From Ignavibacteriales bacterium (GTDB lineage: Bacteria > Bacteroidota > Ignavibacteria > UBA10030 > SZUA-254), in assembly GCA_016214905.1 (NCBI GenBank), contig JACRMQ010000005.1:62001-126000 (forward strand): a DNA stretch of 64,000 nucleotides, written 5' to 3'. Each line of letters begins with the position of its first letter. The stretch's first letter is position 1. Under the pieces are notes generated by a model, which saw only the letters and a list, made by a program, of their open reading frames with translations, ran no database searches and had not been told where the DNA came from. Both the position numbers and the translations under genes were made by a program. This document shows positions 28,095 to 42,603 of this stretch, piece by piece.

Positions 28095-28597
28095 TAGTCA
28101 TATTAATCTAAAAGCAATATACAATTTTGATTCCATCTAAATCAACTCTAATCTAACTTTTCAAATGACGGCTGTGCGTTATAAAACAAATCCATTCCCA
28201 TGAATTTTAATTGCCTTTAACATCATGACAAAGCTCTGTAGAACAATTATGAACTCTTCATAATCATCTATCCACAGGAGATACTTTTAATCAACTGATC
28301 CAGATAAATTTAATTTCAACTCCGAACTAATTATATAAACTTAAACTTAATAATCTAACCTTTCTGGACTGGGGTTTTTAACACACTTTAAAATAAATTT
28401 GTCAGTATTGAGAATTCCGTTGATATTAAATGAAAAATAATCAAATCAAAGATCAGCAATCCTCGATAAATTTAATAAATTCGCCAATCTTATAATTATT
28501 TTCTGGAGGAATAAATGGCATAATTTTAGGATATTGTTGATAGCCCGCTGAATTTATTTTATTGACTAATCTAGCTCTCTTTGAAAGGAATAAAAGA
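28095..28597. other. Divergent intergenic region between cco and HybA-like operons
   Basis: About 500 AT-rich bases with no credible gene. It holds the divergent promoters of the cbb3 operon (minus strand) and of the iron-sulfur/cytochrome operon (plus strand). An inverted repeat close to ccoI is listed separately. A two-codon frame (ATG GCA TAA at 28514) follows a perfect GGAGG, probably by chance. No terminator or riboswitch was recognised. Confidence 0.6.
28127..28145. promoter_or_regulatory. Candidate operator upstream of ccoI (TTGAT-N9-ATCAA)
   Basis: Perfect 5-bp arms TTGAT (28127-28131) and ATCAA (28141-28145), separated by 9 bp, lie 33 bp before the ccoI start. The half-sites match those of CRP/FNR-type boxes, but the 9-bp gap is wrong for FNR (normally 4 bp), so binding by an FNR-like oxygen regulator is only a guess. 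Confidence 0.2.
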
Positions 28598-29506
28598 ATG
28601 TCTGGCAAAAGCCGTCGCGATTTTCTGAAACAATCCGTAGCAGCTGGAGCGGTAGCTACGGGACTTTCAACATCAACAGCAACTGCAGGACCTAAAAATA
28701 TTTTATCAGAAGACAGAATGGGGGTTCTGGTCGATACTACCGTCTGTGTTGGATGTAGAAATTGTGAATGGGCTTGCAAAGATGCCCACAATTTACCTGT
28801 CGGCAATTTAGCTTCGTACGAAGATAGAAAAATTTTGGAAACTAAAAGAAGACCTGATCATACTGCGCTCACTGTTATCAATGAATACCCTCATGGCAAA
28901 AATTCAAATCTACCTATCAATGTAAAGATACAGTGTATGCATTGCGATCGCCCGGCTTGTGTTTCTGCCTGCATCGTTGGTGCTTTCTCTAAAGAAGAAA
29001 ACGGATCGGTTATCTGGGATACAGAAATGTGTATTGGTTGTCGTTACTGCATGGCTGCCTGTCCGTACCAGATTCCGGCGTTTGAGTATGATAAAGCAAT
29101 TAATCCATTAATCATGAAATGCGATTTTTGTTTCAACAGAACAAAAGAGGGAAATCTTCCCGGCTGTGTGAACATCTGCCCGGTTGAGGCACTTACTTAT
29201 GGCCCGAGGAGCGAACTGATTAAAATTGCACGAAACCGTATCAAAAAGGAACCGCATAGATATATCGATCATATTTTTGGCGAATATGAGGTTGGAGGTA
29301 GTTCGTGGATGTACCTGGGTTCAACAGATTTTAAAGAACTTGATTTTCCTCGGCTTGGAAAAAATCCCGCTCCCGGTGTTTCTGAATCCATCCAACATGG
29401 AATTTTTGCATACTTCATTCCCCCTGTTTCTCTGTACGCACTGCTGGGCGGAATCATGTGGATTACAAAACGTCGTAAAGAATTAGAGGAGGAGGGAAAA
29501 ATATGA
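28598..29506 (+). CDS. HybA-like periplasmic four-cluster ferredoxin subunit with Tat signal and C-terminal anchor
   Basis: 302-residue electron-transfer subunit. A clear twin-arginine signal opens the protein (MSGKSRRDFLKQSVAAGA), so I start at the ATG at 28598 (AAGGA eight bases before it) and not at the upstream TTG. Four [Fe-S] motifs follow: CVGCRNCEWACKD, CMHCDRPACVSACI, CIGCRYCMAACPY and CDFC ... CVNICPVEA. A C-terminal helix (YFIPPVSLYALLGGIMWI) anchors it to the membrane, as in HybA and HmcB. It passes electrons between the 13-haem cytochrome and the HybB-like quinone subunit. Overlaps the next gene by 4 bp. Confidence 0.92.
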   Translation: MSGKSRRDFLKQSVAAGAVATGLSTSTATAGPKNILSEDRMGVLVDTTVCVGCRNCEWACKDAHNLPVGNLASYEDRKILETKRRPDHTALTVINEYPHGKNSNLPINVKIQCMHCDRPACVSACIVGAFSKEENGSVIWDTEMCIGCRYCMAACPYQIPAFEYDKAINPLIMKCDFCFNRTKEGNLPGCVNICPVEALTYGPRSELIKIARNRIKKEPHRYIDHIFGEYEVGGSSWMYLGSTDFKELDFPRLGKNPAPGVSESIQHGIFAYFIPPVSLYALLGGIMWITKRRKELEEEGKI

Positions 29507-30750
29507 GTCACGAATTAGTTAAACCAGTTCAGATAAAACAAAAATTTTTTACACCCGGTGTTTATGGACTCATTATAATCGCACTAAACGGTTTAGTTTT
29601 TCTGGCGGGAAGATTTATTTTCGGTATAGGCGCGGTTACAAATTTAAATAATCAATATCCCTGGGGACTATGGATTGGTGTTGATGTTGCTGCCGGAGTT
29701 GCGCTTGCTGCCGGCGGTTTTACAACTGCGGCTTTTGGTCATGTGATGCACAAAGAAGAATATCATGCCATTGTCCGCCCGGCATTGTTGACCGCTATGC
29801 TTGGCTACACTTTCGTTGCTATCGGAGTTTTTGTCGATATCGGAAGATGGTACTTTATATGGCATCCGTTGATTATGTGGAACGGAAATTCTGCTTTGTT
29901 CGAAGTTGGTATCTGCGTTATGATTTATATGACTGTTCTGTACATCGAGTTTCTTCCCATTGTTACTGAACGATTTATTGGAAAAGTAAATCTACCCGGA
30001 TTACTCTCTCCATTGAATAAACCGGCAGATAAAATATTGAGATTATTAGACCGCGGACTTTCTAAAACCATGTTCATCTTTATTATCGCGGGAGTTGTTC
30101 TCTCGACACTTCATCAATCGTCACTGGGTACATTAATGGTAATAGCAGGACCCAAAATGCATCCATTATGGCAAACACCTATCTTACCGCTCCTGTTTTT
30201 ATTATCTGCGATAAGCGTCGGTTTTCCGATGGTGATATTTGAATCATTAATGGCATCACGCTCGCTTAAGTTAAAACCTGAAATGCATGTTCTCTCAAGA
30301 TTAGGTTCAATGATAGCACCCTTGCTTGGAATTTATCTTGCTTTTAAAATTGGTGATATGTTCATCAGAGAAACATTCGTTTATTTAAGTGAATTTACGA
30401 CTGCGAGTATAATGTTTTCAATTGAACTTCTCTTAGGAGTAATTATCCCGTTGAGAATGTTCTTATCTCCAAAAGTTTTGAAATCACCTCCTCTTCTTTT
30501 CACGGCATCAGCACTTGTTGTATTTGGAGTATTGTTAAACAGAATAAATAATTTTGTTGTTGCATACACTCCTCCTTATTCAACAGGGTCGTATTTTCCA
30601 TCAATCGGTGAAATTTCTGTCACGATAGGATTTGTAGCAATGTTGGTCCTTGCATATAGATTTATTGTCATCAATTTCCCCGTAATAAGCATGCCCGATA
30701 AACAATCTATCCAACATAATAAATATACGATCAGAGGATTTGAAAAATGA
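29503..30750 (+). CDS. HybB/NrfD-family membrane quinone-interacting subunit
   Basis: 415-residue polytopic protein with about nine to ten helices and the HybB/HmcC signature (NNQYPWGLWIGVDVAAGVAL near the second helix; GRWYFIWHPLIMWNGNSALFEVG; STLHQSSLGTLMVIAGPKMH). The family exchanges electrons with menaquinone in complexes made of an iron-sulfur subunit and a multihaem cytochrome. Ribosome site GGAGGAGGG precedes the ATG; stop and start codons overlap (ATGA) with both neighbours, so the three genes form one complex. Confidence 0.93.
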   Translation: MSHELVKPVQIKQKFFTPGVYGLIIIALNGLVFLAGRFIFGIGAVTNLNNQYPWGLWIGVDVAAGVALAAGGFTTAAFGHVMHKEEYHAIVRPALLTAMLGYTFVAIGVFVDIGRWYFIWHPLIMWNGNSALFEVGICVMIYMTVLYIEFLPIVTERFIGKVNLPGLLSPLNKPADKILRLLDRGLSKTMFIFIIAGVVLSTLHQSSLGTLMVIAGPKMHPLWQTPILPLLFLLSAISVGFPMVIFESLMASRSLKLKPEMHVLSRLGSMIAPLLGIYLAFKIGDMFIRETFVYLSEFTTASIMFSIELLLGVIIPLRMFLSPKVLKSPPLLFTASALVVFGVLLNRINNFVVAYTPPYSTGSYFPSIGEISVTIGFVAMLVLAYRFIVINFPVISMPDKQSIQHNKYTIRGFEK

Positions 30751-31886
30751 AAAACTTTTTGATTGTTTTATCGATTTTATTTTTTGTAATTGAATCCGAC
30801 GCTCAACAGAGCCCCGGCAAAAACCACGCGAAACTGCACATTAATTGTGTATCATGTCACACATGTGGTCTTCCGACCAAAGATGATCCTTGCTGGGTAG
30901 CTTGTCCTCGCGAAAAAATGATTACGGTTTATCTCAAACCCGAGCAAACCGATGAACTTGTTGTGATCGATCAGGGAAGCGAAAGATATGGCCCGGTTTA
31001 TTTTTCACACAAGATACACGCACAAATGTCGGGGATGGTTGGCGGTTGCGGGAATTGTCATCATTATAACACGCTTGAGCAAATATTAAAATGTAGTAGT
31101 TGCCATGCATCGTCCAGACAAAGAGAAAACATCGGCATTCCTGATTTGAAAGCTGCTTATCACAGGCAGTGCATGGATTGCCATCGTGAATGGAGTCACG
31201 AGACAGGTTGCACCACATGCCACGCTCCGATAAACAATTTAAAAGTATCGGAAAAAACAGTTTTAGAAAAACAATTGAAAGGTAAAGATCATCCACCGGT
31301 CACCGAACCGACAAAAATTGTGTACGAAACTGACTTTGAACCTGGAAAGCTGGTTACGTTCTATCATGATGATCATGTAAATAATTTTAAAATAAAATGC
31401 AATAAATGTCATGCTCAGGAAAGCTGTACCAGATGTCACGATGTGAATAATGTATCGAGTGATAAATTATTATTAGTAAAAGAAAAGAAATCATTAGAAG
31501 AACATCATAAAAAATGTTTCACTTGTCACAAAGAGAACGATTGTACTAAATGTCATCTCGATAGACCACTTGAGCCGTTTAATCATAAACAGAGAACCGG
31601 GTGGGCACTTAATAAACCTCATTCGAACCTTCCCTGTGTAAGTTGTCATGGATCAAAGCAACCATATCAAATACTCGACAATCAATGCACGAGCTGCCAC
31701 AAGGGCTGGAAAAAGGAAACTTTTAAGCATTCGGTAACAGGTCTGCGGCTTGACGAGATCCACTCAGAGCTTGTTTGCGTAGATTGTCATGTTGGGAATG
31801 ATTATTCTGTAAAACCCGACTGCAAAAGTTGCCACGAAAACTTTGCATATCCAAAACAAAAACCTGGAAAGTTGGTCAGCAAATAA
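30747..31886 (+). CDS. 13-haem periplasmic cytochrome c
   Basis: 379 residues with an N-terminal signal peptide (residues 1-19) and thirteen CXXCH motifs (CVSCH, CGNCH, CSSCH, CMDCH, CTTCH, CNKCH, CTRCH, CFTCH, CTKCH, CVSCH, CTSCH, CVDCH, CKSCH). Many spare His residues (FSHKIHAQ, FYHDDHV) suit bis-His ligation as in class III cytochromes. After the first motif come extra cysteines (CGLPTKDDPCWVACP). It forms, with the HybA- and HybB-like subunits, an Hmc-like complex linking the menaquinone pool to periplasmic redox partners. Direction of electron flow is not evident. A histidine kinase follows 32 bp downstream. Confidence 0.9.
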   Translation: MKNFLIVLSILFFVIESDAQQSPGKNHAKLHINCVSCHTCGLPTKDDPCWVACPREKMITVYLKPEQTDELVVIDQGSERYGPVYFSHKIHAQMSGMVGGCGNCHHYNTLEQILKCSSCHASSRQRENIGIPDLKAAYHRQCMDCHREWSHETGCTTCHAPINNLKVSEKTVLEKQLKGKDHPPVTEPTKIVYETDFEPGKLVTFYHDDHVNNFKIKCNKCHAQESCTRCHDVNNVSSDKLLLVKEKKSLEEHHKKCFTCHKENDCTKCHLDRPLEPFNHKQRTGWALNKPHSNLPCVSCHGSKQPYQILDNQCTSCHKGWKKETFKHSVTGLRLDEIHSELVCVDCHVGNDYSVKPDCKSCHENFAYPKQKPGKLVSK

Positions 31887-31918: not shown

Positions 31919-33784
31919 ATGCTTTTTAACAAGATCGGTTTTCGATTAATATTTGCAGTTGCTCTTACTTCGCTTGTAATCATAGGCGTTTTTGCATACT
32001 TTAATATTAAATCGCAAACCGGCAGTTTAATATCCGAAGTTGAACGTCATGCCAACCAGTTAGGTGAAACCGTTATCGCAAGCACGCGGTTCGATATGAT
32101 GCTGAATCAAAGAGATAGAATTCAGGAAACCATCAATTCAATCGGTAAACAACCTCAAATCAGGGATGTCAGAATCATAAATAAAGTCGGTAAAATTATT
32201 TATTCATCTGATTCAAAAAATATAAATAAGATGGTAGATAAACGAGCTGAAAGTTGCTACGCATGCCACTCCGAAGACCGTCCTCTTGAGCAAATTTCGA
32301 TCACGGAACGGACAAGAATATTTAAAGAGCATCCGGAGTTCAACCGAATTCTCGGAATAATCACCCCGATATACAATGAAAATTCATGCTGGCAAGCCGA
32401 ATGTCATGCTCATCCTAAAAATCAAAAAGTTCTCGGCGTCCTCGATGTTTCAATTTCACTCGCGGAGGTTGATAAAACAATTGTTATAAGGGAATGGGAA
32501 ATTGTAGTATTTGCTATCATCGCAATAATAGCCGTTGGATTATTGATCGCTTTCTTTGTGCGACGCTGGGTGTCTAATCCTGTGAATGATTTATTAAATG
32601 CAACTCAACAGGTCAGCCAGGGTAATTTGAATTATGCCATTAAAGATCTCAGTAACGATGAAATAGGAAAGCTTGGTACCTCATTTAATAATATGACAAA
32701 GAAATTGGCAGAAGCACGGATGCAGCTTTTCCAATCGGACAAAATGGCTTCACTCGGACGACTTGCCGCAGGAGTTGCGCATGAAATAAATAACCCTCTG
32801 ACCGGAGTCCTCACTTACAGCAGCTTTCTCTTAAAAAGGACAAAGGATAATCCTGAATTCCAGGATGATCTCAACATTATTGTGAGAGAAACTTTACGAA
32901 GCCGTGAAATCGTAAAAAGCTTATTGGATTTTTCGCGTCAATCGGTTCCCAGGAAAAGCAACGCTAATTTAAATGACATCATCGATAAGGCGATCAGTGT
33001 TATTGAGCGTCAATTATCTTTAAAAAAGATAAAAATCATCAAGCAATCCGAAGTTAATCTTCCCCCGATTACTGTCGATTCAAACCAAATCCAGCAAGTA
33101 TTTATTAACCTTTTTGTAAATGCATCGGATGCGATAGGTAACAACGGCGGTACAATAACAACTTCAATAAAGCAAATATCGCTTTCACCTTTTGGAATTG
33201 CTCAGATAAAAAAAGCGACATGTCTTAAGCGACACAGTTTGATTGATAATGAATTTAAGATCGATGGACTACCGGCATTGAAAGTTAAGGTTGTTGCAGA
33301 CGGTAAAGGAGGAATAATTCATCTCGATCCTGTTTATGGAAAACATCGCAATCAATATTATCCCGGCATCAAAATAAATAAAGACACAAAATTCATATGT
33401 CCCGACTGCGATAATTCACTTGTTCAGCAAGATAAAATATGTCCCAAGTGTGGCTCACCGATCCTTGCATTTGAAATAAGTGGACAAGGATTTTACGAAG
33501 TATGCGCCTCCGAAAACAGTGATTGGGAAAGATGGGATTTTGTTGATTCTTCCGGTTTAAAAGAGTATATAGAAATAAGAATCAGCGACACAGGTTGCGG
33601 AATCAGTAAAGACGATCTTCCAAAAATATTCGAACCGTTCTTCTCGACCAAAGGACAAAAGGGTACCGGCCTCGGTTTGGCTGTGATTTGGGGAATAATC
33701 GATAATCATAACGGAACTATTAACGTTGAGAGCGAAGAAGATAATGGAACTACTTTTATCATCCGGCTTCCGCTCATTCAATAA
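31919..33784 (+). CDS. Haem-binding-motif sensor histidine kinase with zinc-ribbon insertion in the ATPase domain
   Basis: 621 residues. Helices at ~9-29 and ~195-214 frame a periplasmic sensor with a CXXCH (C113-H117, CYACH) and a CX4CH (C157-H163, CWQAECH), suggesting covalent haem. Then HAMP (~215-265), HisKA with GVAHEINNPL (His288) and an ATPase domain with N box around N401 (LFVNASDAI). Before the G1 box (SDTGCGIS, D557) lies a ~125-residue insertion (normally ~20) containing CLKRH (435-439), CPDC (494-497) and CPKCG (508-512), a zinc-ribbon or rubredoxin-like pattern. G2 is GTGLGLAV. The design suggests sensing of periplasmic redox state through haem, perhaps also cytoplasmic metal or redox state. 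The two response regulators downstream are its likely partners. Confidence 0.9.
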   Translation: MLFNKIGFRLIFAVALTSLVIIGVFAYFNIKSQTGSLISEVERHANQLGETVIASTRFDMMLNQRDRIQETINSIGKQPQIRDVRIINKVGKIIYSSDSKNINKMVDKRAESCYACHSEDRPLEQISITERTRIFKEHPEFNRILGIITPIYNENSCWQAECHAHPKNQKVLGVLDVSISLAEVDKTIVIREWEIVVFAIIAIIAVGLLIAFFVRRWVSNPVNDLLNATQQVSQGNLNYAIKDLSNDEIGKLGTSFNNMTKKLAEARMQLFQSDKMASLGRLAAGVAHEINNPLTGVLTYSSFLLKRTKDNPEFQDDLNIIVRETLRSREIVKSLLDFSRQSVPRKSNANLNDIIDKAISVIERQLSLKKIKIIKQSEVNLPPITVDSNQIQQVFINLFVNASDAIGNNGGTITTSIKQISLSPFGIAQIKKATCLKRHSLIDNEFKIDGLPALKVKVVADGKGGIIHLDPVYGKHRNQYYPGIKINKDTKFICPDCDNSLVQQDKICPKCGSPILAFEISGQGFYEVCASENSDWERWDFVDSSGLKEYIEIRISDTGCGISKDDLPKIFEPFFSTKGQKGTGLGLAVIWGIIDNHNGTINVESEEDNGTTFIIRLPLIQ

Positions 33785-33799
33785 ATCTTATTTCGGATT

Positions 33800-34606
33800 A
33801 TGAATACACCATCGAATATATTAGTCGTTGATGATGAGAAAGTAATCATAGATGGAGTAGTAAAAATTTGTTCGCTGGAAAATTATACTATCGATTTTGC
33901 TTCAGATGTAACAACTGCAATTGAGAAGATTTCAAAAAAATATTACTCAATCATCATCTGCGATATTATGATGCCAGATGGTGACGGCTTCCAGATATTG
34001 AACGAACTCCAAAAGCAAAACATCGACAGTGCTTTAATAATGATGACTGGTTATTCAACAGTTGAGAATGCTGTTAATTCACTTTACAAGGGCGCAATAG
34101 ATTTTATTCCTAAACCGTTTACAGTAGACGAGTTGCTGAGTTCAATCTATCGCGCAAACAAATTTCAACAAATTAAAAAAAACCAAGTAAAACCCAACAA
34201 AGATAATCAGAAAGTTGAATTGTTTTACGTCGAATGTCCGACCAAATATTATCGTCTTGGCAATTCAAGCTGGTTGTTCGAAGAAAGAGACGGCTCGGTT
34301 TTGATAGGTGTTTGCGATTTTTTTCTCGCAACGATTGATTCAGTAACAGAAATTGAATTTCTTAATCCTGAGGATGAAATAGTACAAGGCATCTGTTGTC
34401 TCACGATCAAATCGAAAGATAGCAGAGTGCATAAAATTCATTCTCCTGTTTCAGGCAGAATAATCGATGTAAATAAAAATTTAAAATTGATTTCCAACCT
34501 GATTGAAAAAGACCCTTACTTTGAAGGATGGGTATATCGCGTTATACCCAACGATCTTGGTTATGAAATTAAAAATTTAGTACCTTGCAGTTCAGATAGA
34601 ATGTAG
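33800..34606 (+). CDS. Response regulator with C-terminal GcvH-like domain
   Basis: 268 residues. A receiver domain occupies ~1-120 (phospho-Asp55 in IICDIMMPDGDG; Lys105 in PKPF). Residues ~143-260 resemble the glycine-cleavage H protein: LGNSSWLFEERDGSVLIGVCDFF, then SRVHKIHSPVSGRIIDVN and DPYFEGWVYRV. The lysine that carries lipoate in GcvH (seven residues before the conserved [SA]PVSG) is Ser208 here, so lipoylation at the usual site is not possible. There is no DNA-binding domain. Output may be through protein contact. The gene follows the kinase by 15 bp. Confidence 0.88.
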   Translation: MNTPSNILVVDDEKVIIDGVVKICSLENYTIDFASDVTTAIEKISKKYYSIIICDIMMPDGDGFQILNELQKQNIDSALIMMTGYSTVENAVNSLYKGAIDFIPKPFTVDELLSSIYRANKFQQIKKNQVKPNKDNQKVELFYVECPTKYYRLGNSSWLFEERDGSVLIGVCDFFLATIDSVTEIEFLNPEDEIVQGICCLTIKSKDSRVHKIHSPVSGRIIDVNKNLKLISNLIEKDPYFEGWVYRVIPNDLGYEIKNLVPCSSDRM

Positions 34607-34658
34607 GTTTGAACATAATATAAGTTTAATAAATTATTTTTTATTTAGGAGATAAGTC

Positions 34659-35822
34659 ATGGCATTATTCATACTCGCAATAATTTTATTCATCATAGCA
34701 GATATCTTAATTCGGGCGATCAGCAAGAACTTGCATGAAAAGAAGTTGAAAAAAGAACGTGAAATCGTTCTACATGAAAGCCTCAGATTAGATTTTACCG
34801 GTGAGGCAAAAACTTTGAAACGAGCTGAAGTGCAAAACCCGAAAGCCAAAATTTTGTGTGTTGACGATGAGGAAGTTATTCTCGGTAGCTTCAGAAAAAT
34901 TCTTGTGCTCGATGGTTACTCGATAGATACTGTTGAAACCGGACAAGAAGCGCTTGGATTAATACAGAAACATCATTATGATTTTGTATTTACTGATCTT
35001 AAAATGCCGATGATGGATGGAGTTGAAGTGACAAAATCAGTAAAACACCTGCGCCCCGATATCGATGTTATCATAATTACCGGATACGCATCTGTGGAAA
35101 CCGCGGTTGAGACAATGAAATACGGAGCGATGGATTATGTACAAAAGCCGTTCACGGAAGACGAACTCCTGGCATTCGTAAAGAAAATCTTAATCAAAAG
35201 ACAAGATAAAATTCAAAAACAACTCAAACCAAATGTTCATATCACCCATCTTCCGGCTACGCACGATTTTATTAAAGGTGAGTTTTCAATCCCCGGTGGT
35301 GTTTTCATAGCGAAGAATCATACCTGGTTTAGCATTAATCAGGAAGGAATAGCCAAAATCGGTATGGATGATTTTGCAAAAAAACTGATTGGGAAGATAG
35401 ATTCAATCGAATTTCCGAATCTCGGGATGAATATAAAAGCAGGGCAGCCGCTATTTACTGTAAAACAAGGAAGCAGAAGTGTAACATTTAATTCTCCAAT
35501 CACGGGGAAAGTATCACGGGTCAATACGGCTTTGCTGAAAAATCTTGTGGCATTAGAGATTACAGCATATGAAAGTAATTGGATCTGCTCTCTTGATACC
35601 GATCAGATAGATAACGAAATTATGGGTATGTCGATTGGTAAATCTGCGGTATCACTGTTCCAAAATGATATTGAAAAGTGCAAAACTTTATTGAAAGAAT
35701 TAATAAAATCTGAAAAACGAGAAAGCGAATATACTGGTGAAGGACAGATTTACATCGGACAACTTGAAGAACTACCAGATGCAAACTGGCAAAAAGTAGT
35801 TGCCGAATTTTTTATCAGGTAA
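34659..35822 (+). CDS. Membrane-anchored response regulator with GcvH-like domain
   Basis: 387 residues. An N-terminal helix (LFILAIILFIIADILIRAI, residues 3-21) and a basic stretch tether it to the membrane. A receiver domain follows at ~63-180 (Asp113 in FTDLKMPMMDG; Lys163 in QKPF). A GcvH-like domain covers ~205-310 (KNHTWFSINQEGIAKIGMDD, then GSRSVTFNSPITGKVSRVN). The position of the lipoyl lysine is Ser272. A C-terminal ~75-residue extension is unassigned. AGGAG precedes the ATG. It is a paralogue of the preceding regulator and shares its domain order; the membrane anchor suggests it acts near the redox complex and not on DNA. Confidence 0.88.
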   Translation: MALFILAIILFIIADILIRAISKNLHEKKLKKEREIVLHESLRLDFTGEAKTLKRAEVQNPKAKILCVDDEEVILGSFRKILVLDGYSIDTVETGQEALGLIQKHHYDFVFTDLKMPMMDGVEVTKSVKHLRPDIDVIIITGYASVETAVETMKYGAMDYVQKPFTEDELLAFVKKILIKRQDKIQKQLKPNVHITHLPATHDFIKGEFSIPGGVFIAKNHTWFSINQEGIAKIGMDDFAKKLIGKIDSIEFPNLGMNIKAGQPLFTVKQGSRSVTFNSPITGKVSRVNTALLKNLVALEITAYESNWICSLDTDQIDNEIMGMSIGKSAVSLFQNDIEKCKTLLKELIKSEKRESEYTGEGQIYIGQLEELPDANWQKVVAEFFIR

Positions 35823-36231: not shown

Positions 36232-39200
36232 ATGAAACAAAATCGAACGATGGTCACAATTGATGGTAATGAAGCGGCCGCATTTGTCGCGCACAAAACA
36301 AACGAAGTAATCGCTATATACCCAATCACACCCTCATCACCAATGGGCGAATGGTCCGATGAATGGTCCGCTCTCGGAAAACGAAATTTGTGGGGAACTA
36401 TACCTCAAGTAATCGAGATGCAAAGCGAAGGTGGGGCTGCCGGCGCCGTTCACGGTGCTCTTCAAGCGGGTGCCCTCACAACTACGTTCACATCGTCACA
36501 GGGATTATTATTGATGATTCCGAATATGTTCAAGATTGCCGGCGAGCTAACATCGACAGTGTTTCATATCGCGGCACGAACAGTTGCAACTCACGCACTT
36601 TCAATTTTTGGAGAACACAGTGATGTTATGGCTGTGCGATCAACCGGCTGGGCGATGTTATCATCTAATTCACTTCAAGAAATAATGGACTTCGCATTAA
36701 TCGCCCAGGCAGCAACTCTGGAATCGCGTGTCCCGTTCATTCATTTCTTCGATGGTTTTCGATCCTCACACGAAGTAATGAAGATAGAAGAACTGACCGA
36801 CGATGATATGCGCGCGATGCTGAGCGACGAACTTATTCGCGCTCATCGTGCAAGAGCTATGTCTCCGGATAAACCTATTTTACGTGGCACCGCTCAAAAT
36901 CCAGATGTTTATTATCAGGCGAGAGAAACAGTCAATCCATTTTATACTGCTTGCCCCGAAATCGTAGAAAAGGCAATGCGAAAGTTTGAACAATTGGTTG
37001 GTCGGAAATATGAATTATTCCAGTACTTCGGTGATCAAGATGCGGATCGGGTTATCATAATGATGGGCTCGGGCGCGGAAGCGGCACACGAAACGGTGGA
37101 ATATCTTAATAAAAACGGAGAAAAAATAGGACTGCTGAAGGTTCGTTTATATCGACCTTTCTCTGCGGAACATTTCATAAAGGCATTACCGAAATCTATT
37201 AAAAACATCGCAGTGTTAGATCGCACAAAAGAACCGGGTGCAACGGGTGAACCGCTTTATCAGGATGTTATAACTACAATGAGCGAGGCGTTCATAAACA
37301 ACGCTTTACCATTCGCATATCCAAAAATAATCGGCGGCAGATACGGTCTTTCATCCAAAGAATTTACACCTGCAATGGTTAAAGCCATATTCGATGAAAT
37401 GAAAAAATCACAACCTAAAAATCATTTCAATATCGGAATCAACGATGATGTCACAAAAACAAGTTTAGATTACGACCCTTCATTCACAACCGAATCTGAT
37501 GATGTGGTAAGGGCGATCTTCTTCGGGCTTGGCGCGGATGGTACAGTTGGCGCCAATAAAAATTCAATTAAAATTATAGGTGAAGATACAGATTTTTATG
37601 CACAGGGATATTTCGTATACGATTCGAAAAAATCCGGTTCTACAACAACATCACATTTACGTTTCGGACCGCGTCCGATTCATTCAACATATTTAATCGA
37701 TAAAGCAAGTTTCATCGCATGCCATCAATGGTTCTTCCTTGAAAAATATGATGTGCTCAAATCAGCTATTAACGGCAGCACATTTCTTTTAAATAGTTTG
37801 TACGGACCGAACGAAGTGTGGGATAAACTTCCACGGCACATACAAAAACAAATCATCGATAAAAAAATCAAGCTTTACGTGATAGACGCATACAACGTAG
37901 GTCGTCAAACCGGAATGGGAACTCGCATCAACACAATCATGCAAACCTGTTTCTTTGCCATTTCGGGTGTGCTACCCAAAGATGATGCAATAGCGGCAAT
38001 CAAACATTCGATAGAGAAAACTTATGGTAAAAAAGGAGCTGATATTGTATCTCAGAATTTCGAGGCGGTGGATAAAACACTCGCAAATCTGTTTGAAGTG
38101 AAGGTACCGGATAAAGTTACAAGTAATATTGAAATGCCGCCAATCGTTTCACCTCAAGCCCCCGATTACGTTAAAAATGTTCTGGGGAAAATAGTAGCAG
38201 GAAACGGTGATGAACTCCCGGTCAGCGCGTTGCCGTTGGACGGAACTTTCCCCACGGCTACGGCTCAATGGGAAAAGAGAAATATCGCGCTGGAAATTCC
38301 GGTTTGGGAATCGGAGATTTGCATCCAGTGCAACAAATGCGTAATGGTATGTCCGCACGCGGCTATCCGCGCAAAAGTTTATGAACCAAAATTCCTCGAT
38401 AATGCTCCTGCCACTTTCAAGTCGATTGATTTTAAAGGTACAGAATACAAGGGAATGAAGTATACAATACAAATAGCCCCGGAAGATTGCACAGAATGTG
38501 GTCTTTGCGTAGATATTTGCCCAGCAAAGAGCAAATCGGAAACAAAGGTAAAAGCGATTAACATGAAACCGCAACCGCCTATCCGTGAATCCGAGAGGTT
38601 AAACTACGATTTCTTTTTGAATATTCCTGATATAGACCGAAGAACTGTTAAGGTGGATACGATAAAAGGTTCACAATTTTTAAGACCGTTATTTGAATAT
38701 TCAGGCGCGTGTGCCGGGTGCGGAGAAACACCATACGTAAAATTAGTGACGCAATTATTTGGCGACAGAACCATCATAGCAAACGCGACCGGTTGTTCTT
38801 CGATCTACGGCGGTAATTTACCAACCACTCCATACTGTGTCGATCATAACGGTCGTGGACCGACCTGGTCAAATTCACTTTTCGAAGATAATGCGGAGTT
38901 TGGTCTTGGAATGCGTCTGACTATTGATAAACATACCGAGATGGCAAAAGAATTAGTTGAGAAATTAAAATCCCAGATCGGTGAATCGCTTGCAAACGAA
39001 TTATTAAGTGCCGACCAAAAAGATGAAGCAGGCATTTATTCGCAGCGTGAAAGAGTGAAGATTCTTAAAGATAAATTAAAGACCATCTCTTCACCCGACG
39101 CGAAAAGCTTGATAAGTCTTAGTGATAATCTTGTAAAACGCAGCGTGTGGATATTTGGGGGTGATGGTTGGGCTTATGATATCGGGTACGGTGGATTAGA

Positions 39201-39801
39201 TCATGTAATTGCCACAGGCAAAAATGTAAACATTCTTGTCATGGATACCGAAGTGTATTCAAACACCGGCGGGCAAATGTCGAAAGCAACATCACGCTCG
39301 GCGATCGCAAAATTTGCGGCAAGCGGCAAATCGACTGCGAAAAAAGATTTAGGATTATTAGCTATGGGATACGGTAATGTGTATGTGGCAGCTGTTGCCA
39401 TGGGCGCTAATGATTTACAAACTCTTCGAGCTTTCATCGAGGCAGAAGCATACGACGGACCATCAATCATCATAGCATATAGTCATTGCATCGCGCATGG
39501 TATTAACATGGCTCGTGGAATGCAGAACCAAAAACTTGCGGTAGAAACCGGTTATTTCCCGCTTTACCGGTATAATCCGATGTTGGCCCTTGAAGGAAAA
39601 AATCCATTCAAACTCGATTCTAAAGCTCCCAGCCGAAAGTTGAAAGAATTTACAGATCTGGAAACTCGATTTAAAATGCTCGAAAAAAGTTACCCCGAGA
39701 GGGCGAAAGAATTAAGCGTTCTCTCTCAACGCGATGTCGAAACTCGCTGGAAAATGTATGAACACCTCGCGCGTGACAAAGATGGTTCTACTCAAAAATA
39801 A
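36232..39801 (+). CDS. nifJ: Pyruvate:ferredoxin (flavodoxin) oxidoreductase
   Basis: 1189-residue single-chain PFOR, a cytoplasmic enzyme converting pyruvate and CoA to acetyl-CoA, CO2 and reduced ferredoxin. Domain I starts NEAAAFVAHKTNEVIAIYPI; the ferredoxin-type domain has CIQCNKCVMVCPH and CTECGLCVDICPA; extra cluster Cys lie in SGACAGCGETPYV; the thiamine-diphosphate site is GGDGWAYDIGYGGLDHV and later DTEVYSNTGGQMSKAT. Length is normal. No good ribosome site precedes the ATG. The ferredoxin made could feed the NfnAB-type enzyme encoded ten kilobases downstream. Confidence 0.97.
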   Translation: MKQNRTMVTIDGNEAAAFVAHKTNEVIAIYPITPSSPMGEWSDEWSALGKRNLWGTIPQVIEMQSEGGAAGAVHGALQAGALTTTFTSSQGLLLMIPNMFKIAGELTSTVFHIAARTVATHALSIFGEHSDVMAVRSTGWAMLSSNSLQEIMDFALIAQAATLESRVPFIHFFDGFRSSHEVMKIEELTDDDMRAMLSDELIRAHRARAMSPDKPILRGTAQNPDVYYQARETVNPFYTACPEIVEKAMRKFEQLVGRKYELFQYFGDQDADRVIIMMGSGAEAAHETVEYLNKNGEKIGLLKVRLYRPFSAEHFIKALPKSIKNIAVLDRTKEPGATGEPLYQDVITTMSEAFINNALPFAYPKIIGGRYGLSSKEFTPAMVKAIFDEMKKSQPKNHFNIGINDDVTKTSLDYDPSFTTESDDVVRAIFFGLGADGTVGANKNSIKIIGEDTDFYAQGYFVYDSKKSGSTTTSHLRFGPRPIHSTYLIDKASFIACHQWFFLEKYDVLKSAINGSTFLLNSLYGPNEVWDKLPRHIQKQIIDKKIKLYVIDAYNVGRQTGMGTRINTIMQTCFFAISGVLPKDDAIAAIKHSIEKTYGKKGADIVSQNFEAVDKTLANLFEVKVPDKVTSNIEMPPIVSPQAPDYVKNVLGKIVAGNGDELPVSALPLDGTFPTATAQWEKRNIALEIPVWESEICIQCNKCVMVCPHAAIRAKVYEPKFLDNAPATFKSIDFKGTEYKGMKYTIQIAPEDCTECGLCVDICPAKSKSETKVKAINMKPQPPIRESERLNYDFFLNIPDIDRRTVKVDTIKGSQFLRPLFEYSGACAGCGETPYVKLVTQLFGDRTIIANATGCSSIYGGNLPTTPYCVDHNGRGPTWSNSLFEDNAEFGLGMRLTIDKHTEMAKELVEKLKSQIGESLANELLSADQKDEAGIYSQRERVKILKDKLKTISSPDAKSLISLSDNLVKRSVWIFGGDGWAYDIGYGGLDHVIATGKNVNILVMDTEVYSNTGGQMSKATSRSAIAKFAASGKSTAKKDLGLLAMGYGNVYVAAVAMGANDLQTLRAFIEAEAYDGPSIIIAYSHCIAHGINMARGMQNQKLAVETGYFPLYRYNPMLALEGKNPFKLDSKAPSRKLKEFTDLETRFKMLEKSYPERAKELSVLSQRDVETRWKMYEHLARDKDGSTQK

Positions 39802-39841
39802 ATTCATCTCAAATTATATCATAATTTTTTAGATTGAAGGA

Positions 39842-40843
39842 ATGGAAACAAAAATGGATTTGACGACCAAATACTTAGGAATAAAATTAAAAAACCCGAT
39901 AGTTCCATCGGCATCACCGCTATCCTATTCACTTGACAGCATGAAACAACTCGAAGACGCAGGCGCTTCGGCAATAGTGATGTACTCACTTTTTGAAGAA
40001 CAAATTGCTCACGAGCGATCTGAACTTCTACATTATTTATCGCATGGCACCGATAGTTATGCGGAAGCTTTGTCTTACTTTCCGGAGGTTCAGCATTACA
40101 ACAGCGGACCTGATGAATATCTTAATAACATCCGAAACGCAAAAAAATCTCTCGATATTCCTATCATCGGCAGTTTAAACGGGGTATCGGTTGGTGGTTG
40201 GATCGAGTACGCAAAAAAAATTCAGGATGCCGGTGCCGATGCGTTAGAACTGAACATCTATTACATCCCAACGAATCCGGATGTCTCCTCATCAGAACTC
40301 GAGAATAAATATTTAGAAGTAGCCAAGACGGTAAAGAAAAGTGTTACAATCCCGGTGGCAGTAAAATTAAGTGCTTTCTTTACGACTATGGCAAATATGG
40401 CTCGGAAATTTGACGATATCGGAATCGACGGTTTGGTTCTCTTCAATCGTTTTTATCAACCCGATATTGACCTTGAGTCGCTGGAGATAGAACCGAATAT
40501 TATCTTAAGTACTCCGCAAGCATTGCGATTGCCGATGCGTTGGATTGCAATATTGCACGGAAGAATTAGGGCTAACCTCGCTGCATCAAGCGGAATTCAT
40601 ACGAGTGATGATGTATTGAAGATGTTGATGGCCGGAGCCGATGTCACGATGATGTGTTCTTCACTTCTTAAACACGGACCGGAACATATCAAGAAAACTC
40701 TTTCAGAAGTCGAGAAATGGATGAGTGAACATGAGTATGTTTCTGTTCAACAACTAAAAGGAAGCATGAGTCAAAAATCTGTTGCTGATCCTGCTGCTTT
40801 TGAGAGAGCTAATTATATGAAATCTCTGCATAGTTATAAATAG
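39842..40843 (+). CDS. Dihydroorotate dehydrogenase-like flavoprotein
   Basis: 333-residue FMN-binding TIM barrel of the dihydroorotate/dihydropyrimidine dehydrogenase superfamily ([88 protein letters not shown]). It has no iron-sulfur motif. Paralogues like this often follow PFOR genes in Bacteroidota-related genomes and are probably not the pyrimidine-pathway enzyme; the true substrate is unknown. Two ATG codons compete (39842 and 39854); GAAGG is 1 and 13 bases before them respectively, so the start is unsure. The gene is 40 bp downstream of nifJ, likely co-transcribed. Confidence 0.88.
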
Positions 40844-40879
40844 CCATATTTGATTATTATTCACAATATTATTAATTTA

Positions 40880-40898
40880 AGACTAATTACTCCGATAT
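40880..40898 (+). promoter_or_regulatory. Candidate Rrf2 operator, copy 1
   Basis: AGACTAATTACTCCGATAT lies directly before the rrf2-family gene and matches 17 of 19 positions with a site at 41371-41389 before the next gene. The repetition in front of a regulator and its neighbour suggests an operator or shared promoter element, with autoregulation. This is inference from position and similarity only. Confidence 0.5.
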
Positions 40899-40904
40899 AT
40901 TAAG

Positions 40905-41342
40905 ATGAGCATTATATTTAGCAGACAGTGTGAATATGCGCTTCAAGCCGTCCTATTTCTGGCATTGAAACCACAAAAAGAATTGACTTCAATCAGGGAG
41001 TTAACCAAGCGAATCGATATACCGTACCATTTCGTTGCGAAAATTCTCCAGGACCTTACCCGTAAAGGATTATTAGTTTCGCATAAGGGTCCTGCCGGTG
41101 GATTTGGTTTAGCCCTCCCCGCAAAAAATATTACCATACTCCAGATCGTTGAAGCCATCGATGGACTTTCATTCATGAATAATTGTGTGTTTGGATTTCC
41201 TGATTGTAGTCATAACGATCGCTGTGCGGTGCATGATCATTGGGAAAAAATCCGTGAACAAATTCACGATATGCTCGCCTCAAAAAATATTCTTGAGTTG
41301 ACTGAAATTAATAAAAAACCGCAATACAATTTGATTGCATAA
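40905..41342 (+). CDS. Rrf2-family transcriptional regulator with Fe-S cysteine motif
   Basis: 145-residue winged-helix regulator of the Rrf2 family (FSRQCEYALQAVLFLAL; HFVAKILQDLTRKGLLVSHKGPAGGF). Three cysteines in CVFGFPDCSHNDRC (spacing C-X6-C-X5-C) occupy the place of the Fe-S ligands of IscR and NsrR, followed by the family's AVHDHW. It should therefore sense iron-sulfur, NO or redox state. The next four genes include cluster-binding redox proteins and an HAO-type cytochrome, which favours a NsrR-like role. The putative operators around 40880 and 41371 support local control. Confidence 0.9.
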   Translation: MSIIFSRQCEYALQAVLFLALKPQKELTSIRELTKRIDIPYHFVAKILQDLTRKGLLVSHKGPAGGFGLALPAKNITILQIVEAIDGLSFMNNCVFGFPDCSHNDRCAVHDHWEKIREQIHDMLASKNILELTEINKKPQYNLIA

Positions 41343-41370
41343 ATATAAGACCTTTTTTTAAACAGTATTC

Positions 41371-41389
41371 AGACCAATTACTCTGATAT
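41371..41389 (+). promoter_or_regulatory. Candidate Rrf2 operator, copy 2
   Basis: AGACCAATTACTCTGATAT, 17 of 19 identical to the site before the Rrf2 gene, lies 21 bp before the membrane ferredoxin gene. It probably controls the redox operon 41410-45550. Confidence 0.5.
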
Positions 41390-41409
41390 TATCTCCGATA
41401 AAATTACCG

Positions 41410-42603
41410 ATGGAACTTCAAAGAACAAATACAAACGGCTCTGATGGATCGTCTGCAGAGAATCTTATACACACTAATTTATTACGTATAAAAAATATTC
41501 CACCAGAGTTGAGAAAAACAAAATACGATTTTAAGAATGACAAATCCTTTATTACAAGAATCATTCAGCGGTTAAAAACTGATTCACAATTCCTAAGATC
41601 CGTAATCCAAATAATATTTCTTCTCCTCTGCATTTGGATCGGAATTGAATTTTACCTCTTCATGAAATGGGGATCAAGCGGCGGTCAATCGTTATTTCAT
41701 GAACGTCCGCCGGGAGTTGAGGGATTTTTACCGATCAGTGCTCTGATGAGCTTGAAATACTGGCTTCAAACCGGGATAATCAATAATATCCATCCTTCTG
41801 GATTATTCATATTCATCGCAATTATCGCCGGCGGTTTATTGCTTAAAAAAAGTTTTTGCGGTTGGCTTTGTCCTGTTGGAACGATAAGCGAAAGCTTATG
41901 GATGCTGGGAAGAAAAATATTCGGAAAAAATTTAAACTTGAATCGCTGGCTCGATTATCCATTGCGTTCAATAAAATATTTCCTTCTCTTCTTCTTCGTA
42001 TACTCGATCTGGCAAATGGATACATCTTCGCTATTCGAATTTATCAATAGCCCATACAATAAAGTTGCCGACATCAAAATGTTTCTATTTTTTTCTAACA
42101 TCACATCGTTCGCGCTCTGGACAATTATAATATTAATGATGTTTTCTCTTTTCATCCAAAATTTCTGGTGCCGTTATTTATGTCCATACGGTGCATTGCT
42201 TGGCGCCATAAGCTGGTTGAGTCCGACAAAGATAACCCGAAACAAAACTACTTGTATCGATTGTGAGCTTTGCACCAAAGCATGTCCATCTAACATAAAA
42301 GTGCATAAAGTCAAAAAGGTTTGGAGTGATGAGTGTATGAATTGTCTCGCCTGTGTTCAGGCTTGCCCGGTTAAAAACACACTTGATATCCGCACGCCGA
42401 TTACTAAAACACGTGTCCCGAATTTAATTTTCGGGATCCTGATTATCGGCGTTTTTATCGCAATCACCGGACTTGCAATGATTACCGATCACTGGCATAA
42501 TCAAATTTCGAAGGATGAATATCTAAAAAGATTTAAAGAACTCGAAACTCCACTTTATCAACACAATCAAGGTCAAGTGCCTAAGTACGGACCAAATGAT
42601 TGA
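41410..42603 (+). CDS. NapH/CcoG-like membrane iron-sulfur protein
   Basis: 397 residues. About five transmembrane helices carry two Cys-containing loops, FCGWLCPVGTISE and WCRYLCPYGALLG, the NapH/NosR/CcoG pattern. Two cytoplasmic [4Fe-4S] motifs follow: CIDCELCTKACPS and CMNCLACVQACPV, then a last helix (LIFGILIIGVFIAITGLAMI). The N-terminal ~60 residues are hydrophilic and unassigned. Such proteins move electrons from quinol or ferredoxin across the membrane to periplasmic reductases. Here the partner is probably the octahaem cytochrome three genes downstream. Confidence 0.88.
   Translation: MELQRTNTNGSDGSSAENLIHTNLLRIKNIPPELRKTKYDFKNDKSFITRIIQRLKTDSQFLRSVIQIIFLLLCIWIGIEFYLFMKWGSSGGQSLFHERPPGVEGFLPISALMSLKYWLQTGIINNIHPSGLFIFIAIIAGGLLLKKSFCGWLCPVGTISESLWMLGRKIFGKNLNLNRWLDYPLRSIKYFLLFFFVYSIWQMDTSSLFEFINSPYNKVADIKMFLFFSNITSFALWTIIILMMFSLFIQNFWCRYLCPYGALLGAISWLSPTKITRNKTTCIDCELCTKACPSNIKVHKVKKVWSDECMNCLACVQACPVKNTLDIRTPITKTRVPNLIFGILIIGVFIAITGLAMITDHWHNQISKDEYLKRFKELETPLYQHNQGQVPKYGPND

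Follow-up and report, generated by a model that had tools for sequence, protein, structure and literature searches.

A GcvH-like fold without a lipoylation signature in paired response regulators of a conserved signalling and electron-transfer cassette

We analysed a 64,000-nucleotide stretch of DNA from an Ignavibacteriales bacterium (assembly GCA_016214905.1, contig JACRMQ010000005.1, positions 62,001 to 126,000 of the forward strand), which we call the window and number from its first letter. Two neighbouring genes in it encode response regulators, RR1 and RR2, each of which joins a receiver (REC) to a domain related to the lipoylated H-protein GcvH (H domain). RR1 is soluble (REC-H) and RR2 begins with a predicted transmembrane (TM) helix (TM-REC-H). 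They close a tightly packed, same-strand cassette of six genes, in which they follow an iron–sulfur (FeS) protein, an NrfD-type subunit, a multiheme cytochrome and a histidine kinase, in that order. The features of the two regulators are as follows; 1htp is a solved H-protein structure.

33800..34606, + strand: RR1, soluble REC-H response regulator, 268 amino acids, cassette gene 5
34232..34603, + strand: H domain of RR1, residues 145-268 (Pfam GCV_H; alignment of the model to 1htp)
34421..34423, + strand: codon of RR1 Ser208 at the lipoyl-lysine position, with a one-residue insertion before it
34659..35822, + strand: RR2, TM-REC-H response regulator, predicted to be membrane-anchored, 387 amino acids, cassette gene 6
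34659..34724, + strand: N-terminal hydrophobic helix of RR2, residues 1-22, with a basic stretch after it (translation; N-terminal conservation)
35280..35669, + strand: H domain of RR2, residues 208-337 approximately (Pfam GCV_H; alignment of the model to 1htp)
35454..35498, + strand: hairpin of RR2, residues 266-280, with basic Lys269 (position -3) and Arg273 (position +1)
35472-35474, + strand: codon of RR2 Ser272, inside the hairpin
35787..35813, + strand: C-terminal W-x2-hydrophobic-x3-FF motif of RR2, residues 377-385 (alignment)

An earlier note on this DNA, made from the letters alone, had assigned an H-protein-type domain to both regulators and had supposed that the fold was kept. Both points held up. 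Pfam placed REC at residues 7-116 of RR1 (E = 1.4e-25) and 65-174 of RR2 (E = 9e-31), and GCV_H at residues 153-254 of RR1 (E = 3e-14, 53.4 bits) and 218-318 of RR2 (E = 3.2e-16, 59.8 bits), both over the family cut-off of 22.2 bits. The 13 best matches of the RR2 H part among Protein Data Bank (PDB) sequences were all H-proteins (top E = 2.7e-10). AlphaFold models of the two regulators, compared with solved structures, returned the H-protein fold in both cases: H-proteins were the best match of the second domain of RR1 (model residues 144-268; 1htp, Z 21.0, root-mean-square deviation (rmsd) 1.6 over 122 residues) and of the H domain of RR2 (model residues 209-341; 1htp, Z 16.8, rmsd 1.8 over 131 residues). 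These matches span the entire H-protein chain, including both its N- and C-terminal parts. The mean confidence score (pLDDT) was 86 for RR1 and 66 for RR2, with block means of 74-93 across RR2 residues 211-330. Compared with two relatives (dS 0.66-1.37), the H domains had a ratio of non-synonymous to synonymous substitution rates (dN/dS) of about 0.05-0.12, which suggests purifying selection.

We aligned RR2 with 83 of 85 RR2-type relatives (length 370-410) and RR1 with 74 of 80 RR1-type relatives (length 250-300), giving sets of 84 and 75 sequences; types were assigned by length, so that L167, an RR1-like protein of 434 amino acids, was placed in the RR2-type (L numbers denote loci). Both regulators have an intact receiver, with the phosphoacceptor Asp, acidic pair, Thr/Ser and Lys in place. 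All five key residues are invariant in the RR2-type, as are four of five in the RR1-type, the fifth, Thr83, being Thr in 72 sequences and Ser in three. Scaffold residues of the RR2-type H domain are also fixed (Phe266, Pro280 and Gly283, invariant in all 84). The N-terminal helix of RR2, which spans residues 2-43 in the AlphaFold model, is predicted to anchor the protein in the membrane with its REC-H part probably facing the cytoplasm, and its C-terminal tail is conserved among the relatives. No DNA-binding domain matched RR1 or RR2 over a Pfam cut-off, and a weak NQRA_N match to RR2 (20.4 bits) lay under its cut-off of 25.

We next consider the position of the lipoylated lysine. The earlier note had read Ser there in both regulators (208 and 272), and the codons, both AGC and seven residues ahead of the first Ser in SPVSG and SPITG, confirm this reading. 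The canonical GcvH of the same genome (126 amino acids, on contig C6, a different contig from that of the window) carries the lysine in TIEAVKAVSD; RR2 Ser272 aligns with the lipoylated Lys of GcvH, as does RR1 Ser208 after the one-residue insertion. Because the RR1 hairpin is one residue longer, either Asp207 or Ser208 could occupy the lysine position. Across the relatives this position is far from uniform. Residue 272 in the 84 RR2-type sequences is Asn in 34, Lys in 18, His in seven, Thr in seven, Gly in six and Gln in three, with others including Arg (entropy 2.65 bits); in the RR1-type, where 73 of 75 sequences have a residue there, it is Gly in 32, Glu in 18 and Asp in 13, with others making up the rest.

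In H-protein, the Glu three residues before the lysine is reported to matter for lipoylation, from older mutagenesis. GcvH has this Glu, as do two proteins (L046 and L091) that we take to be LbpA, a GcvH-like protein, from their ligase-like and DsrE-like neighbour genes. The RR2-type has Lys or Arg there in 83 of 84 sequences, with Arg in place of Lys269 in 24. Among 277 H domains, with identical proteins counted once and with some truncated RR2-type proteins included in the REC-H and H-only sets, the pair Glu(-3) and Lys(0) occurred in six, namely four GcvH and the two presumed LbpA, and in none of 165 REC-H proteins. An alternative conserved lysine, which by the earlier note would overturn its view if shown to be lipoylated, did not turn up in the hairpin: no lysine that might serve as a modification site is fixed there in the 75 RR1-type or 84 RR2-type sequences. 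The claim that modification was lost fared less evenly. The window proteins and most relatives examined lack the signature and have probably lost the modification, but 18 of 84 RR2-type proteins keep a Lys, so that absence of the lysine is not absolute.

These 18 proteins raise the alternative that Lys-bearing relatives are lipoylated and that the window proteins only recently lost a real redox arm. The own genome does have a lipoyl synthase gene, lipA. However, none of the 18 has Glu(-3), the position elsewhere holds Asn, His, Thr, Gly, Gln or Arg, and an RR2-type tree computed with the hairpin left out needs at least eight switches between Lys and non-Lys. We therefore regard such a recent loss as very improbable. 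A single loss of the lysine was rejected: the family tree does call for one change between a lysine-bearing group and the rest, but the branch concerned had an SH-aLRT support of 47. This tree sampled 26 of 80 REC-H and 24 of 85 TM-REC-H proteins, with domains of less than 85 residues left out.

The earlier note had also drawn attention to a shared Ser-Arg pattern. This is true of RR1 and RR2 in the window but is not conserved in relatives, where a special role finds no support: the closest RR1 relatives have ER, and RR2 relatives have GR, NR, KK, HR and others. Ser-Arg as a conserved surface was accordingly rejected. Position 272 is one of the more variable in the hairpin, and of the pair only a basic residue at +1 is kept (Lys or Arg in 78 of 84 RR2-type sequences), in the membrane-anchored copies: it is present in 140 of 151 of these versus 20 of 98 other H domains (256 rows, seven ambiguous ones omitted). 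We considered whether the basic +1 marks a membrane-facing tip. The raw association was striking, but with relatedness counted (132 rows) it came down to two or three independent pairs (changes of anchoring on the tree) and was not significant, and we treat it as a lead only.

The cysteines of these domains bear on a further alternative, in which the H domains serve as sensors or carriers and the groove that houses the lipoyl arm in GcvH takes up a small ligand, be it free lipoamide, a sulfur species or a quinone head group. The RR1-type does keep Cys146 (69 of 75), Cys200 (61), Cys263 (68), His211 (73) and Gln196 (75), and LbpA, in the excerpted text of PMC6067878, has conserved cysteines at its N- and C-terminal ends. 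The RR1 cysteines, however, do not align with those of the presumed LbpA of L091 and are mostly not lost together, and the RR2-type keeps only Cys310 strictly (83 of 84), with no other strictly kept cysteine in its H domain. Ligand binding of this kind thus seems improbable to us. Pairing of Cys146 with Cys263 of RR1, in a disulfide or at a metal, found no support either and was rejected, as the two are mostly lost separately: five of the 75 sequences lack only Cys146, six only Cys263 and one both.

The genes upstream of RR1 complete the cassette.

28562..29506, + strand: HmcB/HybA-like 4Fe-4S protein, cassette gene 1, with a twin-arginine-like signal and a C-terminal hydrophobic tail (by eye)
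29503..30750, + strand: NrfD-superfamily membrane subunit, HybB/HmcC-like, cassette gene 2 (Pfam NrfD, E = 1e-20)
30747..31886, + strand: 13-heme c-type cytochrome, cassette gene 3 (13 CxxCH counted by eye; Cytochrom_CIII, E = 4.8e-15)
31919..33784, + strand: histidine kinase, cassette gene 4 (HAMP, HisKA, HATPase), with one CxxCH and one CxxxxCH in its N-terminal sensor region

The FeS protein matched the NCBIfam HmcB model at E = 3.3e-99 (331.8 bits, under the cut-off of 420) and Pfam Fer4_11 at 2.2e-20, with a TAT_signal match of 0.0062 that was under cut-off. The NrfD subunit matched HybB-type PRK10881 (1e-104) and HmcC (2.6e-82, 277.1 bits versus 550), both under cut-off. Since the two proteins fall below the curated Hmc cut-offs, we regard them as Hmc relatives and not as members of the curated equivalogs. 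Inspection of open reading frames (ORFs) revealed no HmcE or HmcF between the cassette genes, although no family search was aimed at them. The ATPase domain of the kinase contains a CxxC-CxxC zinc-ribbon-like insert (around 33392-33463), which is kept in 44 of 47 kinases from cassettes with the same gene order (see below) and is possibly a second, cytoplasmic redox or metal input.

This cassette recurs widely. A scan of species genomes with RR2-type H domains found 244 relatives, 80 of which were examined as loci. Gene order could be tested wherever over 6.6 kb of DNA lay upstream of a TM-REC-H gene, which was so for 56 such genes, and 47 of them had the exact order FeS-NrfD-cytochrome-kinase-REC-H-TM-REC-H. 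Within these 47, the cytochrome had 13 CxxCH in 46, the kinase carried both heme motifs in all, and the FeS protein had a Tat-like motif in 43. The exceptions were varied: the 13-heme cytochrome is absent from L095, L129 and L146, in which a further TM-REC-H precedes the FeS gene, L142 is reordered, L156 has no called REC-H, L167 has the long REC-H (434 amino acids) that its length classed as the other type, and in L106, L130 and L159 a gene call is split, missing or extra. By record titles, the 80 loci belong to Ignavibacteriota (43), Bacteroidota (19), Gemmatimonadota (5), Elusimicrobiota (5) and Chlorobiota (2), with six unassigned; nearly all are metagenome-assembled genomes, and some of these taxon names may be imprecise. 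L160 is a strain record of the cultivated Stygiobacter electus, while Melioribacter roseus was represented by metagenome-assembled genomes only. The exact order was found in one of the five Elusimicrobiota loci, L164, whose cytochrome has 11 CxxCH. RR2 orthologues are patchy in the family of the window organism (5 of 15 genomes, including its own). A single-protein scan of viral contigs, sensitive only to close relatives, found no match.

Some side observations concern these loci. A divergent second TM-REC-H at L076:13571-14737 is 53% identical to RR2 and has similar counterparts in L129 and L146. It precedes a small gene (with five CxxCH in L076) and the FeS gene, and the cassettes concerned lack the 13-heme cytochrome. 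On the 3' side of the window cassette (36232-42603) lies a run of genes that we presumptively label PFOR, dihydroorotate-dehydrogenase-like protein and Rrf2-type regulator, and the same run comes after the cassette in L094 and L095. PFOR (36232-39801) was rejected as a cassette partner, as it is near the cassette in just four of the 80 loci (L094, L095, L142 and L161).

H domains that lack both a receiver and the lipoylation signature also occur in the order, in regions that were hand-picked from matches (40 and 16) and are not a random sample. They take the form of TM-H proteins, often in tandem, and soluble H proteins, and lie by FeS, NrfD, kinase and regulator genes. This H-only cassette has the form TM-H/FeS/NrfD/H/kinase/regulator, the regulator being NtrC-type in L038, where it was scanned. 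For 68 of 85 TM-REC-H, 64 of 80 REC-H and 81 of 95 H-only proteins there is an NrfD gene no more than 5 kb away, and 38 of the 47 proteins without one have the end of the locus within 5 kb. The GcvH and LbpA controls (NrfD within 5 kb in 0 of 6) all sit on short loci and are uninformative. The own genome, which makes a better control, has four NrfD genes, and only that of the cassette has H-domain genes near it; no NrfD gene is on the contig of the canonical GcvH, and the cassette FeS protein is by far the top HmcB match. Twelve loci have an archaemetzincin (M54) protease gene, assigned to this family from the copy at L038:396-941, and in 11 of them it directly follows the regulator gene of an H-only cassette.

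Four of the TM-H proteins carry a match to the HmcD model (positions 9-33) in their N-termini, with E values of 2e-4, 6e-5, 0.029 and 1.3e-4, all under the curated cut-off. They lie directly 3' of FeS-NrfD.

L038:4954-5664: TM-H with an HmcD-like helix
L042:15982-16701: TM-H with an HmcD-like helix
L039:6748-7440: TM-H with an HmcD-like helix
L047:4043-4873: TM-H with an HmcD-like helix

These proteins look as if HmcD had been fused to an H domain. HmcD matches were found in 4 of 14 TM-H versus 0 of 6 TM-REC-H and 0 of 10 control N-terminal helices of other proteins. L041 has only a 97-amino-acid H fragment where others carry the TM-H with an HmcD-like helix. A W-x2-hydrophobic-x3-F[FL] tail motif is common to TM-REC-H and TM-H among the 10 TM-REC-H and 14 H-only tails that we viewed, which do not amount to a full count.

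These relatives also speak to the possibility that the H domain has no function of its own and is a leftover linker. The residue needed for the known function of H-protein is indeed gone. Yet the scaffold is conserved in the 75 and 84 sequences, dN/dS is low, REC-H stands immediately ahead of TM-REC-H in 67 of 71 cases, and stand-alone H-only versions exist. We consider a vestigial domain highly improbable, the least probable of the readings discussed here.

Together, we propose that the H domains are lipoyl-independent docking modules through which a heme-sensing two-component system is tied to a membrane complex of the Hmc/Hyb type, and we give this proposal a probability of roughly one half. 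An H domain beside FeS-NrfD is common to the clusters and the receiver is optional, which favours the H domain as the part that binds the complex and the receiver as an addition that brings control by the heme-motif kinase. The recurrence of the gene set in many bacteria makes it probable that the GcvH fold was turned into a docking part by which a heme sensor can act on the complex. We infer a chain that starts with heme binding by the kinase. The heme-motif sensor of the kinase would register how reduced or how heavily loaded the cytochrome chain in the periplasm is. If the kinase pairs with the two regulators, it would phosphorylate both receivers, that of the soluble RR1 and that of RR2 at the membrane. 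This may then alter how the H domains dock, presumably from the cytoplasmic side, on the NrfD-FeS-cytochrome complex or on a partner beside it, and the altered docking could tune assembly of the complex or electron flow post-translationally. The binding or docking role suggested by the earlier note is in this respect plausible and is strengthened by the conserved cassette and by the H-only relatives beside FeS-NrfD.

Several observations weigh against this proposal. The RR2 gene of a relative, G010, is broken by an in-frame stop, and 18 of 84 RR2-type proteins have Lys at the old lipoyl position. The receiver and linkers of RR2 are poorly modelled. Proximity in an operon would not by itself prove contact with the complex. 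A second, weaker FeS-NrfD pair of the own genome, on contig C7 (225729-227485; HmcB 111.5 bits against 332.9 for the cassette FeS protein), has no H gene near it, so that an FeS-NrfD pair is not always in need of an H domain. The HmcD matches are limited to 4 of 14 TM-H, all under cut-off; HmcD homology of the RR2 N-terminus was rejected, as there was no match, and the basic +1 did not hold up as a membrane-facing tip. In sister cassettes, moreover, the NtrC-type regulator points to an output that is in part transcriptional.

The last point leads to the alternative that the docking partner of the H domains is another regulator (a second kinase, say, or a sigma-54 activator of the NtrC type). 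They would then be connectors that control transcription of the electron-transfer genes and make no contact with the complex. That sister cassettes have a regulator after the kinase, NtrC-type in L038, and that RR1 is soluble would both fit. No NtrC-type regulator, however, was seen by eye among the ORFs of the window cassette, RR2 is predicted to be membrane-anchored, and receiver-less H domains beside FeS-NrfD, four with the HmcD-like helix, would be odd for a pure connector. We judge a pure connector role unlikely, if less so than the other alternatives. More tentatively than docking itself, and with some doubt, we suggest that the lipoate-free H fold might be a dedicated regulatory subunit of NrfD/HmcBC-type complexes, in which fusion to a receiver would bring direct phospho-switching by a heme-sensing kinase and not transcription.

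If docking on the complex is correct, it would provide conserved partners for a type of FeS/NrfD/cytochrome module that was reported with unconserved flanks in the available portion of PMC10924467. The H domain would also join the output domains of response regulators, as one that probably acts on a membrane redox complex, and a GcvH-like family that annotation could misread as metabolic would gain a function.

A conserved cassette of signalling and electron-transfer genes thus preserves the H fold but carries no lipoylation signature, and several known systems offer comparisons. RR1 and RR2 share with GcvH the fold, PF01597 and the scaffold Gly, Pro, Asn and Trp positions, but differ from it in lacking the lipoyl Lys and Glu(-3), in being fused to receivers and in lying beside respiratory-type genes. 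Lysine-less barrel-sandwich domains in NqrA/RnfC and membrane fusion proteins show that lipoyl-like folds are used in assembly; none is known to be fused to a receiver, and they belong to a separate family from the H domains of RR1 and RR2. We found no description of REC-GcvH fusions among the titles and openings of abstracts listed in searches of open-licence literature. For Melioribacter roseus, the accessible part of PMC3534657 mentions an NrfCD cluster without REC-H-type regulators, and the sole response regulator named in that of PMC5492636 is unrelated.

A closer precedent, although not the same family, is LbpA, the lipoate-binding GcvH-like protein of the sHdr sulfur-oxidation system (partial texts of PMC6067878 and PMC10332631), in which a GcvH-like domain was likewise recruited into a non-glycine redox system. 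The lipoyl lysine of LbpA is strictly conserved according to the excerpt of PMC6067878, whereas RR1- and RR2-type H domains have no conserved lipoyl lysine. Cys146 and Cys263 of the RR1-type lie near both ends of the domain, as the LbpA cysteines do, but are not aligned with those of the presumed LbpA, and the RR2-type lacks them.

Finally, the cassette shares with Hmc the FeS, NrfD and multiheme cytochrome families and nearby regulators, regulator genes being described near hmc loci and Desulfovibrio HmcA-F with rrf1/rrf2 in the sections of PMC10924467 available. It differs in having a cytochrome of 13 hemes versus 16, REC-H regulators and no HmcE or HmcF among the inspected ORFs. The same sections describe a tail-anchored FeS/HybB-like/cytochrome module that is related to Hmc and whose flanks are not conserved, whereas the flanks of the cassette lineage described here are fixed.

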